This document shows positions 87 to 21,938 of a stretch of 39,011 nt of DNA, piece after piece (position 1 is the stretch's first letter; each line of letters opens with the position of its first letter). A program made the translations under genes and the position numbers. This DNA is from Deltaproteobacteria bacterium. GTDB taxonomy: Bacteria; Desulfobacterota; RBG-13-43-22. The stretch covers positions 1-39,011 of the forward strand of contig JACRBX010000028.1 of assembly GCA_016219225.1 (NCBI GenBank). The letters are read 5' to 3'. The notes beneath the pieces were generated by a model, which did no database searches, was not told the DNA's origin, and was given only the letters and a program-made list of their open reading frames with translations.

Positions 87-134
87 CATTTCAAAAGTTA
101 TTGATTGTTTAGGAGGAGGGAGGTGAAACAAAAG

Positions 135-563
135 ATGAAAAAAGGCCTGGTAATAATGTCGATAATAACGGCGTTTATTTTTTCCTTAGGGTTGATGGCC
201 TGGGTTTATGCCGCCGATAAAGCCCCTGATTCCTTTAAAATAGATAATGATAAGGCATTATTTAAGGATGGCAAGCGGACCAAACCAGCGGTGGAATTTA
301 CCCACCTGAAACACGAAAAAGATCACAAAATAGCTTGCACCGAATGCCACCACGTCTATAAGGACGGCAAAAATACCTGGAAGCAGGGGAATAAGGTTCA
401 GAAGTGCAGCGAATGTCACAAGGCAGCGGAGGAAGGCAAAAAGTTGACCCTCCAGAATTCCTTTCATAAAAATTGCAAGGATTGCCACACCAAATTGAAG
501 ACAGAAGGCAAGAAAACAGGGCCAACCCTATGTGCTCAGTGCCATGTAACGGAAAAGAAGTAA
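135..563 (+). CDS. Tetraheme class III (c3-type) cytochrome c, periplasmic
   Basis: A 142-residue exported cytochrome. Residues 1-26 form a Sec signal peptide ending in VYA before ADKAPD. Four CxxCH heme-binding motifs lie at residues 68-72, 91-95, 114-118 and 133-137. The segment FTHLKH upstream of heme 1 and the second His after CTECHH match the axial-ligand layout of cytochrome c3. In sulfate- and metal-reducing Desulfobacterota this family shuttles electrons between periplasmic hydrogenases or formate dehydrogenases and membrane complexes. The ATG at 135 is chosen over the in-frame TTG at 105 because a strong GGAGG-type ribosome site lies at about 111-124 and the signal peptide then starts with MKK. 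A bidirectional terminator follows. No partner redox enzyme is adjacent, so the specific electron donor is unknown. Confidence 0.93.
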   Translation: MKKGLVIMSIITAFIFSLGLMAWVYAADKAPDSFKIDNDKALFKDGKRTKPAVEFTHLKHEKDHKIACTECHHVYKDGKNTWKQGNKVQKCSECHKAAEEGKKLTLQNSFHKNCKDCHTKLKTEGKKTGPTLCAQCHVTEKK

Positions 564-953: not shown

Positions 954-990
954 CTGTAGGTGGGTTCCGTTTCACTCCACCACCCTACAG
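954..990. repeat. GTAGGTGG-type palindromic intergenic repeat
   Basis: CTGTAGGTGGG and CCACCCTACAG form imperfect arms around a short TTCCGTTTCACT-type centre. Similar GTGGGTT..CACCC palindromes are scattered in many bacterial genomes. It overlaps the last codons of the unknown protein gene ending at 985. Confidence 0.55.
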
Positions 991-2001
991 GGGAGACCAT
1001 GGGGAAAGCAGGATCAATTGGTCTGACCCCCTTTGATTCGAAGAAGGCTTTACCGGGGGAAGTACAAGATTATATCTGCCGCCGGCCGGCCATCCCAGGC
1101 CGGATAAAGACTTTTGAAAATCGAGGATTAATTCTTCTTGAGGAGAGGCTATAAGGGATTTTAGAAGGCCTGGGAGGTCCTTCGCCGGCTTAGAAAAGCG
1201 TGTCTCTGATTGTTTCAGGAAATCATCCAAACTCAGGGAACCCAAATCCGGTAAAGGGATAGAAATGGCCCGGCCTTCTTCGGGATCCTGGCCATAGTTT
1301 TCGGCCCAAACCCATAACTGATTAGTAAAAAGAATTAATGGTTCAGGGACCAGTCGATTCTTTAATTCCCGCCAGGCCGTCAGGGCCAAGGGGCAAATGA
1401 TCTCGACGGCCTTTCTTTTTACCCCCGGATGCTCGGGGAAACTGAAATCCAGTCCTTCCTCGATATTTTCCTGCCAGCCTTGGGCCAGGTTTTTTTCCTG
1501 TTCCTCGATTCTGACTAAAGAGGCCTCCAGTTCCCATTCCTCCAGCATCCATTCATGGATCAGGGAAAGGAGAACCTGGCCGTCAATGGCCGAAGAATCC
1601 TTTGCTCCCTTCTGGAAAGGTTGTCCTTTTAAAAGGCCGAAGATTTCTTCCTGGGTCTCCTGATTCTCCCCGTGGGATACTTCCTTGAGATATTTCAGCA
1701 TCCCCTGATCCGGCTTGCCGGCTATATAGGTCCGGATGGACCTCAGGCTTCTGTCCTTTGCCCGGATTTCCTCCTGGGTTCGCTCCAGGGAACGGACCTG
1801 TAACAATCCCTGATCCATCAGGGACTGGTGGGACGGGGACAAGGATAATGGAAAAGGGTGCAGTAATAGGGCCTGTTGAAACAATAGGATAGACCAGGCT
1901 AAGGCTTCTTCTTCCAGCAAGGTGTAAGGACATATCAGGGCCGGTTGTATGGGATCGGAAATCATGGACGAGAATTTATGGGGGAAAATGGTCTTTGTCA
2001 A
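985..2001 (-). CDS. Unknown protein, coupled to the selenocysteine DsbA-like gene
   Basis: I do not recognise this 338-residue protein. It is Leu/Glu/Gln-rich, has no clear signal peptide, no transmembrane segment, no Cys clusters and no recognisable catalytic motif. The central part (residues about 75-185, with KDRSLRSIRTYIAG and EASLVRIEEQEKNLAQGW) looks helical and probably forms coiled coils. The chosen start is a TTG at 2001, one base after the stop of the upstream DsbA-like gene, with GGGAG inside that gene's last codons as ribosome site. This implies translational coupling. The coupling suggests a shared role, possibly as substrate or partner of the oxidoreductase, but that is inference from position only. 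A later start near MISDPIQ (about residue 13) is possible. Confidence 0.7.
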   Translation of the reverse strand: MTKTIFPHKFSSMISDPIQPALICPYTLLEEEALAWSILLFQQALLLHPFPLSLSPSHQSLMDQGLLQVRSLERTQEEIRAKDRSLRSIRTYIAGKPDQGMLKYLKEVSHGENQETQEEIFGLLKGQPFQKGAKDSSAIDGQVLLSLIHEWMLEEWELEASLVRIEEQEKNLAQGWQENIEEGLDFSFPEHPGVKRKAVEIICPLALTAWRELKNRLVPEPLILFTNQLWVWAENYGQDPEEGRAISIPLPDLGSLSLDDFLKQSETRFSKPAKDLPGLLKSLIASPQEELILDFQKSLSGLGWPAGGRYNLVLPPVKPSSNQRGSDQLILLSPWSPL

Positions 2002-2002
2002 C

Positions 2003-2626
2003 TCAATCTCCCATTCGCTTCTTTACCCCGGCGGCCTCTAAAAATTTACCCATTTTTTCATAAGGCTGGGCGCCGACCAAAGAATTGCCGTTCAAAACGA
2101 ATGTCGGAACGGCTTGAATGCCCAGGCTCCGAGATCTGGCCCAGTCCGAATCGACCGCCATTTTAAAGGTCCTTTTTTTCAAAATTTCTCCGGCTTCCTT
2201 TCCGGGGAGCCCGATACCTTCGGCAAGCTTTTGGAGTTCATCCATTTTCCCGATATTGATACCCTGGACAAAATTAGCCTGGAAAACCACCTGGTGGAAG
2301 GGACCTTCCTGCCCTTTGGTGCCGGCCCATTTGGACAGTTCTTGGGCTAACCGGCTGTTATAGATCATCTTCTGATCTCCAAAGGGCAATCCGCTATCCT
2401 GGGCCGCCTTTTTCAGACGGGTCATGATCTGCTGGATATCCAGACGCCCGGCAAAAAACTCTTCCAGGGTTTGTCCCTCTTCAGGGGTTTCGGGATGGAG
2501 CGGGAAGGCCGTCCATCGGATGTCCAATTCAAATTCTTTTTGTAAACGATCAATACGCCCGGTAATGAAATAGCACCAGGGTCAGACATAATCTGAAAAA
2601 ATTTCTAAAAGGGGGAGATCAGGCAT
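2003..2626 (-). CDS. DsbA/FrnE-family oxidoreductase with in-frame UGA, probable selenoprotein (UPWC)
   Basis: An ORF finder sees only residues from a TTG at 2527, which lacks the thioredoxin-fold active site. Reading upstream in the same frame to the ATG at 2626 gives M-P-D-L-P-L-L-E-I-F-S-D-Y-V, then UGA (2584-2582, codon 15), then P-W-C-Y-F-I-T-G-R. The family motif here is normally FxDxxCPWCY, so the UGA falls exactly on the first active-site Cys, giving U-P-W-C. The reading frame is otherwise open for 207 codons. The cis-Pro region GIQAVPTFVLNG lies near the C-terminus. AAGGA sits 5 nt before the ATG. FrnE/DsbA-family proteins are thiol-disulfide oxidoreductases, and UxxC thioredoxin-fold selenoproteins are known in deltaproteobacteria. 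A nonsense mutation is the alternative, but it would have to hit this one codon. No signal peptide is visible, so it is probably cytoplasmic. Confidence 0.82.
2558..2581 (-). promoter_or_regulatory. Possible SECIS-like hairpin just after the UGA
   Basis: Immediately 3' of the UGA, CCC(U)GGU can pair with ACCGGG with one bulged U, closing an 11-nt loop that begins with G. Bacterial SECIS elements lie directly downstream of the UGA and usually carry G early in the apical loop. This loop is closer to the UGA than in the E. coli fdhF element, so the assignment is tentative. Confidence 0.35.
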
Positions 2627-2657
2627 GGATTTCCTTTCCAAATAATACGGAAAAAAA

Positions 2658-18008: not shown

Positions 18009-19541
18009 TTACATCATACCCATAATATGCCACATGCCCATCATCCCTATATCCTCATGTTCGAGGATATGACAGTGAAACATCGTCATACCGTCATAAT
18101 CCATAACAGGGACAAGTATCGTTGCACTACCCCATTTGGGTACCAGCACCGTATCCTTCCAAGCAGGAAGGGTCGAATAGGGGGGGTATGACGAATCGAC
18201 TCCGCTTACGGAAAGGACCTGGGCGGCATTAACATGCTGATGGAAAGGGTGATCCATGCCGCTATTGTTGACAATAGTCCAGACTTCGTACGATCCAAGA
18301 TTCGACATGATGGTGTAGGGATCAACGTCAAAGTCCTGGCCGTTGATATATCCTCTTCCCTGGCCCATGCTAAGGGAAAGGGTCCTTTGGGCCATAACCA
18401 TCACGGAATTCGGATCGATCCGGACAGCGGCCGGATCGATGGAAGAAGGAATGGCGTTGCTCACCCGCGCTCCCTGAACGGAAAGGGTCAGGAGGGTGAT
18501 TTGAGGCGAGGTCATCATGCCCATCCGCGAATAGGACAGGGAAAGAAATTTATAATTTCCATTGGTCGTGCTGGCTTTAATCAGCAGGTCCACTCTCTCA
18601 CCGGGAGAGAGGAGGATCTGGGAACGGGGGTAAGCCTTATCGAGCAGCCCGCCGTCTGTGCCGATAAGATACATGGTGTGGTTGGCGAGGCTGAGTTTGT
18701 AAAACCTGGCGTTACTGGCATTGACAATGCGCCATCTCTGCACCTGTCCGGGCCTGGCCGGCAGGACCGGGTTAACCTGTCCGTTCACCAGGATGGTGTT
18801 TCCTTCCTTGCCGTGCATATAATCACTCATCATCGAATGGGGTGCCGGGTCAGGGCCGCTTAAAGAAATGTCCTTCAGAACCATGACGTGGGTCTCGTAA
18901 CTGCCGAGAGCAGGGATTTCGTCCGCCACGATCATGGCCCCGGCCAGGCCGGCCCAGAATTGTTCGGCCACGAGACCGTGGCGATGGGGATGATAGAAAT
19001 TAAAAGCACCGCTGTCGAGCAGGGAGAGATCATATTCATACGGGTAGGTCTGGCCGGGCATCAGGTTTAAATGGGCTGCATCCGCAGGTTCTTTGGGTGA
19101 AACATGCCATCCATGGGTGTGGAGGTTCGTCATATTTTTCTGATAATTGAGTAGATTGGTTTCGGATGAATAGGGCAGGGAGTTGACAAAATTTATCCTG
19201 AGAACATCGCCTTTTTTAACGTTTATAGTCGGGCCGGGAAAATAACCATTATAGGTCATCAGGTTTGCCGTTGTTCCATTGATATTTACCGGGGAGATCA
19301 TGGACTCCAGGTTCACCTCTACCAGATTCCCGTTCCTGATCGACTGCATGGGGACAGGGTCCCGGAAGGCCGCCCCCGGAGAGGGATCTATCGTCCCGCC
19401 GCCGCCCATGCCTCCACCACCCATGCCGCCGCCGCCCCCTCCTTGCCTGCCCGCCGCCGGAGCAGCCCTCAATCCCAAATAGCCGCCGGCCACCGCGGCC
19501 AAAGATTTTTTAAAGAAGGTTCTTCTGGTCAACTTCATCAT
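18009..19541 (-). CDS. Tat-exported multicopper oxidase (laccase-like), Met-rich
   Basis: A 510-residue periplasmic copper oxidase. The Tat signal is LTRRTFFKKS followed by AAVAGGYLGL. All four copper-ligand motifs are present: HTHGWH (141-146), HPHRHG (184-189), HPFHQH (431-436) and HCHILEHEDIGM (489-500), supplying the type 1 site (Cys490, axial Met500) and the trinuclear cluster. A Gly/Met-rich linker (residues 34-49) follows the signal, and the C-terminus ends GMMGMWHIMGMM. Such Met-rich regions in CueO-like enzymes bind Cu(I), so cuprous or metal oxidation is more likely than phenol oxidation. It is directly downstream of a second multicopper oxidase and likely co-transcribed. AAAGGAGA precedes the ATG. 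Confidence 0.93.
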   Translation of the reverse strand: MMKLTRRTFFKKSLAAVAGGYLGLRAAPAAGRQGGGGGGMGGGGMGGGGTIDPSPGAAFRDPVPMQSIRNGNLVEVNLESMISPVNINGTTANLMTYNGYFPGPTINVKKGDVLRINFVNSLPYSSETNLLNYQKNMTNLHTHGWHVSPKEPADAAHLNLMPGQTYPYEYDLSLLDSGAFNFYHPHRHGLVAEQFWAGLAGAMIVADEIPALGSYETHVMVLKDISLSGPDPAPHSMMSDYMHGKEGNTILVNGQVNPVLPARPGQVQRWRIVNASNARFYKLSLANHTMYLIGTDGGLLDKAYPRSQILLSPGERVDLLIKASTTNGNYKFLSLSYSRMGMMTSPQITLLTLSVQGARVSNAIPSSIDPAAVRIDPNSVMVMAQRTLSLSMGQGRGYINGQDFDVDPYTIMSNLGSYEVWTIVNNSGMDHPFHQHVNAAQVLSVSGVDSSYPPYSTLPAWKDTVLVPKWGSATILVPVMDYDGMTMFHCHILEHEDIGMMGMWHIMGMM

Positions 19542-19619
19542 GAATCGTCTCCTTTCGCAGATTCTCTGAAAATTTATGATTGAGGGGCCGCCTGGCAGCG
19601 GCCCTCAATTTTTATTTGG

Positions 19620-21938
19620 TTAAGGGTTGCAGGGGGTCACACCGTCGTCGACACAGTAGGCCCTCATCATTTCGTTGTCTTCATGTTCAACGATATGGCA
19701 GTGCCAGACGAAGAGCCCCGGGATATCGAATTTGGCCTTGATTCGTGTGATTTCACCGGGGTAGGCGATTACGGAATCCTTGAAGCCGGCTTCCCAGGGC
19801 GTCACGCCGTTCGGGCTCGGAGTCCCGCCCAACAGGGTACGGCTGATGACTTGAAATCTAACCAGGTGCAGATGGATGGGGTGTGCATCCACCGTGAAGT
19901 TGTGGATCTCCCATTCTTCAATATCGTTCAGAACAGGCTTCTCGGTTATGGCATCTGCCCACATCATGGGCATACCGGTCGGTAGTCCCGATAACGGATC
20001 GACGGGGCCTACGAGACCCAGTTTGGCGGCCTTAGGTGCGGCCGGCACGCCGAGACCCCCGCAGAGAGGCGGAAGGACATCGGGGATAACCGCATTAAAG
20101 GCATCCACACAGACCGAAGAAGATTCTTCTTCGTTAAGGGAAACCTTCCGGATGACATTGGCAACACCGAGAGGTGCGCTGGTTGCCTCAGAATTCATGA
20201 CCAGGTTCAATGGGGAGGTCGAAGATACGTCAGCGGGCTGCAAAAGCGCGGAATTTACCACGAATTCCATTACCTGACCGGTGGTGGCCGGATCAGCCGG
20301 CACATCGGGAAATCCGCCAAAAGGGGCATCAGGCGCTGTATTGATCATCCGGATTCTGGTGCCGTCCGGCAGGCCGCTGAAATCCACCAGGACATCGGCC
20401 CGCTCAGCCAGCCCCATGAGCAGGGCCTGCTGTTTGGATGCGGCTTTCTTTGGTTTTGGCATCGTTCCGTCTCCGGGCAGGGGGGTTGCATACCCCGTCA
20501 GGACCTGAACCACCTGTGGCAGGAATCCCTGCTCGGCCCCAATCTGGTAAATAGCCAATTCTTTATCATATTTATTGCTTTTTTTCGGGTGCGGGCGCAC
20601 CACGAAGAGCGACAGATTCAGAAACCGCGAGTTACAGCCGTTCAGAAGACGAAAACGGTACAGGGCCGGAGCTACCTCCAGAACCGGCCAGGTGCTGCCG
20701 TTTACCACCATGGTATTAAAGAAGGCCTCTGGATTCCATATCGGTGAAATATCGCTGAAAACATTGGTGAAGTTGGGAACCAAATCAGGAATGTAAGGCC
20801 CGGCGAATCCATCGAAAAAGGCCCGGCTGCCCGGATAAAAAAGGGAGCCATCGGAGTTGAAGGAGCGGTCCTGAATGGCTATGGGGATCTCCCGTACGGC
20901 ATTCCTGACGGGATCACCCGGAACATTGAGCTGAAGGACCGTCTGGCCCGCTGTCGGCGCAGGTCCCGGAAGGACGGCCGGGAGCCCCGTGGTCCCGTCT
21001 ATGGCCCCATCATAAACCCCACCCCGCACCAACCAGAATCCCGCCGGACCGGCATAGACATTCGAGCGGGTCATACCGAGGGAGTGGTCGTGGTACCAGA
21101 TGGTAGTGGCGGGCTGATCGTTGCGGTACAGAAACTGGGCGGCGCCGTCTTCAAGAGGTGCACCCGGAGCCTGATCAAAGTTTGAACCCCGGGTGGCATA
21201 GCCGGCAGGGATGTCAAAAGCCGCCGGCAGATACCAGGCCTCTGGATATCCATCGCTATGGGGAGCGACATGGGCCCCGTGGACATGAACTATAATCGGC
21301 ACCGGTCCGGTATAGGGAGCCGGATTATCCGTAAAACAGTCGGTCCGATCGGTGCCGTCGCTGCACCCGGTAGCCGGTGGGTTGGCCCAGTGGAGCGTCT
21401 GGTCAATCGGCAGCAAATGAGGCAGGAAGGTGCGGGACGGGGATCCCACAGGATAAGGAAAACCCGTTGCCGGATTGATGGCCACGAGTTCATTTAGCCA
21501 CTTGACATTGACCGGGCTATTCGACACCGTCTCCAGGGTGTATGCCGGGTAGTTAAATTGGGAGTTGGGAGCGGGTGCTACGCCGGCAGGAATTCCGAGG
21601 GCGCCGGCATCAGGCCGGGGGTCGGCTGCCGGTCCATAACTCCAGACCGGGGTAGCCGGAAAGGCGTCCGTGCGGCCGTTTAAAATATTCCATATCCCTC
21701 CCGGCAATATCTGCTGCTTGAACTCCCGGACGGCAATATCATAATTATCTTCCGTGCCGCTGTTTTTCATCACCGGTGGGATCACCAAGGGGATTACAAA
21801 TTTCGGAATGGTAGTCGGATCCAGGGTTCCTCCCGGCAAAGGGGCTGCCAGAGCGCCGGACAGGCTGCCTATCGAGGCTGCGATCAAAAGCAGGGCGGCT
21901 TTGAAAAAAAATCGTTTTCCTGAAAAGTTCATTTCCAT
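19620..21938 (-). CDS. CotA/bilirubin-oxidase-type multicopper oxidase
   Basis: A 772-residue protein with an N-terminal Sec-type signal (KRFFFKAALLLIAASIGSLSGALAAP). Copper motifs: HVHGAHV in the first domain, WYHDHSLGMTRSNVYAGPAGFW, HPIHLHLVRF and HCHIVEHEDNEMMRAY. The set and spacing match CotA, phenoxazinone synthase and bilirubin oxidase, which oxidise organic or metal substrates with reduction of oxygen to water. It is longer than CotA (513 residues); extra length is in the first 100 residues and the loop near residues 160-260. It is the first gene of a pair with the Met-rich oxidase, 78 bases apart. A Mn(II)-, Fe(II)- or Cu(I)-oxidising role is possible but cannot be settled from sequence. 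Confidence 0.93.
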   Translation of the reverse strand: MEMNFSGKRFFFKAALLLIAASIGSLSGALAAPLPGGTLDPTTIPKFVIPLVIPPVMKNSGTEDNYDIAVREFKQQILPGGIWNILNGRTDAFPATPVWSYGPAADPRPDAGALGIPAGVAPAPNSQFNYPAYTLETVSNSPVNVKWLNELVAINPATGFPYPVGSPSRTFLPHLLPIDQTLHWANPPATGCSDGTDRTDCFTDNPAPYTGPVPIIVHVHGAHVAPHSDGYPEAWYLPAAFDIPAGYATRGSNFDQAPGAPLEDGAAQFLYRNDQPATTIWYHDHSLGMTRSNVYAGPAGFWLVRGGVYDGAIDGTTGLPAVLPGPAPTAGQTVLQLNVPGDPVRNAVREIPIAIQDRSFNSDGSLFYPGSRAFFDGFAGPYIPDLVPNFTNVFSDISPIWNPEAFFNTMVVNGSTWPVLEVAPALYRFRLLNGCNSRFLNLSLFVVRPHPKKSNKYDKELAIYQIGAEQGFLPQVVQVLTGYATPLPGDGTMPKPKKAASKQQALLMGLAERADVLVDFSGLPDGTRIRMINTAPDAPFGGFPDVPADPATTGQVMEFVVNSALLQPADVSSTSPLNLVMNSEATSAPLGVANVIRKVSLNEEESSSVCVDAFNAVIPDVLPPLCGGLGVPAAPKAAKLGLVGPVDPLSGLPTGMPMMWADAITEKPVLNDIEEWEIHNFTVDAHPIHLHLVRFQVISRTLLGGTPSPNGVTPWEAGFKDSVIAYPGEITRIKAKFDIPGLFVWHCHIVEHEDNEMMRAYCVDDGVTPCNP

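Follow-up and report, generated by a model that had tools for sequence, protein, structure and literature searches.

A FrnE/DsbA-like gene of a Thermodesulfobacteriota draft genome with an active-site UGA probably read as selenocysteine

The analysed stretch of DNA, referred to below as the window, comprises the 39,011 nucleotides of contig JACRBX010000028.1 (assembly GCA_016219225.1, a draft of 353 contigs, G000 in our numbering). On its minus strand it carries a gene that, judged from sequence comparison, very probably (about 95%) encodes a FrnE-type thiol-disulfide oxidoreductase of the DsbA superfamily with selenocysteine (Sec15) as the attacking residue, the UGA being decoded with the help of a hairpin shortly downstream. 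Insertion of Sec at codon 15 is thus a prediction from comparative data. The gene adds a new member, on strong evidence, to the DsbA-like selenoproteins, a kind known since 2005. The features discussed below are as follows.

2003–2626, minus strand: gene for a predicted FrnE/DsbA-like selenoprotein of 207 residues, with Sec at position 15 and Cys at 18
2582–2584, minus strand: in-frame UGA at codon 15 within the UPWC motif, read as selenocysteine on the grounds of its conservation across loci
2549–2569, minus strand: SECIS hairpin, arms 2569–2562 and 2556–2549, loop CGGGC at 2561–2557, supported by covariation, a recoding null and independent loci
2632–2637, minus strand: Shine-Dalgarno-like AAAGGA upstream of the ATG at 2626, recognised from the sequence
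985–2001, minus strand: uncharacterised gene of 338 aa with a TTG start directly after the selenoprotein-gene stop, found in close relatives only

Gene structure and the in-frame UGA

The reading frame starts at the ATG at 2626, passes through a single in-frame TGA and ends at the stop at 2005–2003. The internal TGA (2584–2582) occupies the position of the first Cys of a CPWC motif, in the context FSDYV-U-PWCYF. The original prediction had described this frame, its coordinates and the position of the UGA correctly, together with the AAGGA ahead of the ATG (part of AAAGGA, 2637–2632); purine-rich motifs of the AAGGA type also precede the starts of most relatives. It had further anticipated that automated annotation would begin at an internal TTG and lose the active site, and mechanical ORF calling does start at the TTG at 2527, giving a product of 174 aa that lacks the motif. 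The clade is prone to misannotation, since gene callers drop the stretch encoding the active site. The true stop of the gene is a UGA as well, hence this codon is not reassigned throughout.

Distribution of Sec and Cys forms

The whole-genome search of 99 relatives revealed TGA at exactly codon 15 in 17 loci of 17 genomes, the window's included. The proteins encoded by the 16 other loci, each from a different genome of the phylum, are 28–69% identical to the window protein, and the sequence around the UGA reads FSDY[VI]-UGA-P[WF]CY or a close variant of it. All 19 further loci, not used before and originating from a search of 395 genomes (18 loci) and from a viral-contig collection (one locus), also have TGA at this codon, which brings the UGA total to 36 loci, a recurrence far beyond chance. 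In the 395-genome sample of the phylum a close relative was matched in 85 genomes and, by our own count from the table, one TGA lies within the match in 66 of the 83 genomes with a nearly full-length match. The close relatives L030 and L031 have TGC at codon 15, and TGC or TGT was found in all 80 loci from named contigs, a set retrieved with the pattern DYVCPWCY and therefore biased toward Cys relatives. The alignment of homologs proposed in the original prediction has thus returned either a Cys codon or TGA at codon 15. Over the eight codons ahead of the UGA, the relatives depart from the window by 48 synonymous and 21 other changes, a predominance that fits a translated stretch.

A tree of 100 proteins implies no fewer than five switches of the Sec label along branches with good support. 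Three Cys forms (L047, L049 and L031) fall next to Sec clades or inside them, and 6 of the 8 hairpin pairs are retained in L049; both observations are consistent with Sec-to-Cys changes. For the exchange of Sec and Cys this set amounts to a clean natural experiment, with hairpin pairing in excess of the protein-preserving null confined to the UGA users. A broader view, in which the Sec-FrnE clade of this phylum would form a distinct and ancient selenoprotein lineage that swapped Sec and Cys repeatedly and, being without the regenerating Cys pair at the C-terminus, depends on a separate reductant, is tentative and on balance rather doubtful. One UGA form, 46% identical to the window protein, comes from a contig filed as viral (L202, IMGVR_UViG_3300037076_000473); it lies near the contig end and may be host DNA. 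The DsbA/FrnE relatives detected in a plasmid search were distant, with at most 34% identity among the matches listed.

The SECIS hairpin

RNA folding indicated two candidate hairpins, one distal and one proximal to the UGA. The distal hairpin pairs columns 16–23 with 29–36, counted from the U of UGA; its 5-nt loop starts 20 nt after the UGA, contains a G and reads CGGGC or CGUGC in most loci. The window copy forms 6 of the 8 pairs, with two mismatches, and 91% of the cells are paired across 16 sequences. Changes on both sides of a pair occurred in 17 cells compared to 5.2 in shuffled data, none of the 500 shuffles reaching 17, and sliding of the pairing partner abolished the signal. Compensatory combinations include CAGUAC/GUAUUG, CGGUAC/GUACCG and CUGUAC/GUAUAG.

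Since the bases of the hairpin double as codons, the pairing was compared with a null in which the codons of each gene were replaced at random by synonymous ones, following that gene's own codon usage, so that the protein stayed the same. The UGA genes (n = 16, without L035, where the hairpin is out of register) had 117 paired cells, while the null averaged 81 and never exceeded 95 in 2000 recodings; the 74 distinct Cys genes had 316, as in the null (316). In the 19 independent UGA loci 136 cells were paired, the null mean being 90 and its maximum 103. Pairing beyond the null in UGA genes and its lack in Cys genes indicate that the structure is selected, detectably only where UGA is used. A SECIS-like element conserved as a structure is therefore present at the expected place (2569–2549), in line with the check suggested in the original prediction, and it provides a testable SECIS for bench work. 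The Rfam search of the window gave no matches.

Against the distal hairpin stand the two mismatches of the window copy and its minimum-energy fold, which favours the hairpin nearer the UGA; the latter shows weaker covariation than the distal one and may represent an alternative state. The most distant UGA relative (L035, genome G066) has a perfect 8-bp hairpin, GGGCGAGA/TCTCGCCC, that lies about 3 nt out of register with the remaining loci.

Selenocysteine machinery of the genome

The search for the Sec genes, called for by the original prediction, had a divided outcome: selA, selB and selD were found, and selC was represented in the draft only by its 3' half. SelB (contig C54, 390 bits), SelA (C320, 628 bits) and SelD (C203, 394 bits) all score above their curated cut-offs; a second SelB match, on C20, turned out to be EF-Tu. 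Every one of the 17 UGA genomes encodes SelA, and G037, which carries a Cys form, lacks it. The SelD of the window's genome (L132, G000:C203:11408–12319, minus strand) is itself a selenoprotein, with an in-frame UGA in AAGUASKLGPG.

The tRNA-Sec fragment (C145:159–224) matches the tRNA-Sec of G001 from the anticodon loop on; foreign sequence takes the place of the 5' part, and the overall score is only 31 bits. The search of the window's own genome with RF01852 returned other tRNAs and this one fragment, with no intact tRNA-Sec, and two pattern searches of the draft did not find the 5' half. Intact tRNA-Sec genes are present in the relatives G001–G004, two of which belong to the window's genus. 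At the junction (G000:C145:145–224; L130, L171) the 3' half is joined to the foreign sequence at the anticodon, about 158 bases from the contig end. The break point and its nearness to a contig end suggest an element that inserted into selC and whose far end the fragment would mark; the intact gene would then be absent from the assembly. In G002, a genome of the same genus with a contamination estimate of 8%, a tRNA-Sec is directly followed by a second selA (G002:C31:24494–25965), besides the selA on G002:C163.

Alternative readings of the UGA

The broken tRNA-Sec could mean that Sec decoding fails in this strain and that translation of an intact gene stops at codon 15; an assembly holding only a 3' half, broken near the anticodon, with no 5' half recovered, speaks for this. 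Yet the assembly is a draft in 353 contigs, the position of the break so close to a contig end is as expected where the far end of an integrated element copies the 3' part of a tRNA, selA, selB and selD are present, and tRNA-Sec is complete in two further genomes from the genus, which makes such a failure very unlikely. If, instead, the locus were a pseudogene, or its TGA an error for a Cys codon, only the 174-aa product from the internal TTG, devoid of the active site, or nothing at all would be made. Mechanical ORF calling, yielding the TTG form only, agrees with that, but UGA occupies one codon common to 36 loci, the codons before it vary mostly synonymously (48 to 21), and the hairpin is selected in UGA genes only, so that decay or error is extremely improbable. 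Sequencing error, named as a hazard in the original prediction, is excluded by the agreement of 36 loci on TGA alongside TGC or TGT in other close relatives.

Reading of the UGA as another residue, by suppression or an altered code, would equally leave the frame open. The chance of this is close to negligible, as the same gene terminates at UGA, the Sec genes are present, and the UGA stands solely at the redox Cys. Decoding as selenocysteine thus remains the preferred reading.

Protein family and proposed mechanism

The protein matches PF01323 with 107.6 bits (curated cut-off 25.6) and the FrnE of Deinococcus radiodurans with a phmmer E-value of 2.2e-19. The best Foldseek matches of its AlphaFold2 model (pLDDT 95) are FrnE structures, with TM-scores of 0.87–0.89 and 27–29% identity to Deinococcus FrnE. 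By these sequence and fold matches the predicted protein would belong to the FrnE subfamily (cd03024), with UPWC in place of CP(W/F)C. In the model residue 15 lies just ahead of a helix spanning residues 16–31, and a VPTF loop is conserved. The role of the cis-Pro in loops of the VPTF type is established for thioredoxin folds.

The similarity to D. radiodurans FrnE (DR_0659; PDB 5cnw and relatives) concerns the fold and the position of the CPWC motif; the window protein differs in having Sec for the first Cys and in the absence of the C-terminal CXXXXC pair, Cys18 being its sole Cys, with none after residue 18. D. radiodurans FrnE is a predicted cytoplasmic thiol oxidoreductase whose C-terminal CXXXXC was proposed to regenerate the active site (PMC8945050), so in the window protein regeneration must proceed differently. 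The pair is found in many FrnE members and is absent from those of S. roseofulvus and D. maricopensis (PMC8945050), hence it does not define the family.

We propose that SelB with Sec-tRNA-Sec would bind the hairpin (2569–2549) during translation, allowing the UGA at 2584–2582 to be decoded as Sec15. Beside the conserved cis-Pro loop (VPTF), Sec15 and Cys18 would form a selenenylsulfide/dithiol pair that reduces or isomerises substrate disulfides and is regenerated by an external reductant. The enzyme probably works in the cytoplasm, where it would reduce or isomerise disulfides; its catalytic direction, substrate, electron donor and location are all inferences.

Relation to known selenoproteins

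A predicted family of DsbA-like selenoproteins was described in the Sargasso Sea study of 2005, which reported nine 'DsbA-like protein' members with UXXC, assigned to COG2761 (PMC1088965). The family appears in later tables as DsbA-like, PF01323, UxxC (PMC9312934; PMC13188914, 'DsbA-like protein form 1', Table 1), and its members were listed for genomes such as those of Anaeromyxobacter and Desulfovibrio (PMC1794560). Set beside the published representatives by description, the window protein shares the PF01323 domain, the N-terminal active-site UxxC and the existence of Cys homologs, as well as a small bacterial SECIS hairpin just after the UGA with a G in the apical loop (as in PMC1088965). 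It is the same in kind and differs in its lineage, a Thermodesulfobacteriota draft genome, and in having a SECIS tested by covariation. The Rcas_1661 family of thioredoxin-like (seleno)lipoproteins, or DsbG-like proteins (NF041057), also consists of thioredoxin-fold UxxC selenoproteins; membership in it was rejected, as the C-terminal part alone matches, with 34.7 bits where the cut-off is 190.

Genomic neighbourhood

The original prediction had suggested the coupled gene at 985–2001 as a possible partner of the selenoprotein. Its homolog is adjacent to the selenoprotein gene in G001 (about 150 nt away), lies 5.7 kb away in G002 and is absent or marginal elsewhere, and the gene has no Pfam or NCBIfam match. 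With adjacency confined to the genus and no family match, a partner role is not supported. Other neighbours of the selenoprotein gene vary between genomes. A class III cytochrome c gene is located nearby in the window (105–563, plus strand), and a close relative of it is found near the selenoprotein gene in G001 too (L141, 3657–4097). Further along the window, two adjacent multicopper oxidase genes (18009–21938, minus strand) encode one protein with three recognised domains and another in which the C-terminal domain alone is recognised.
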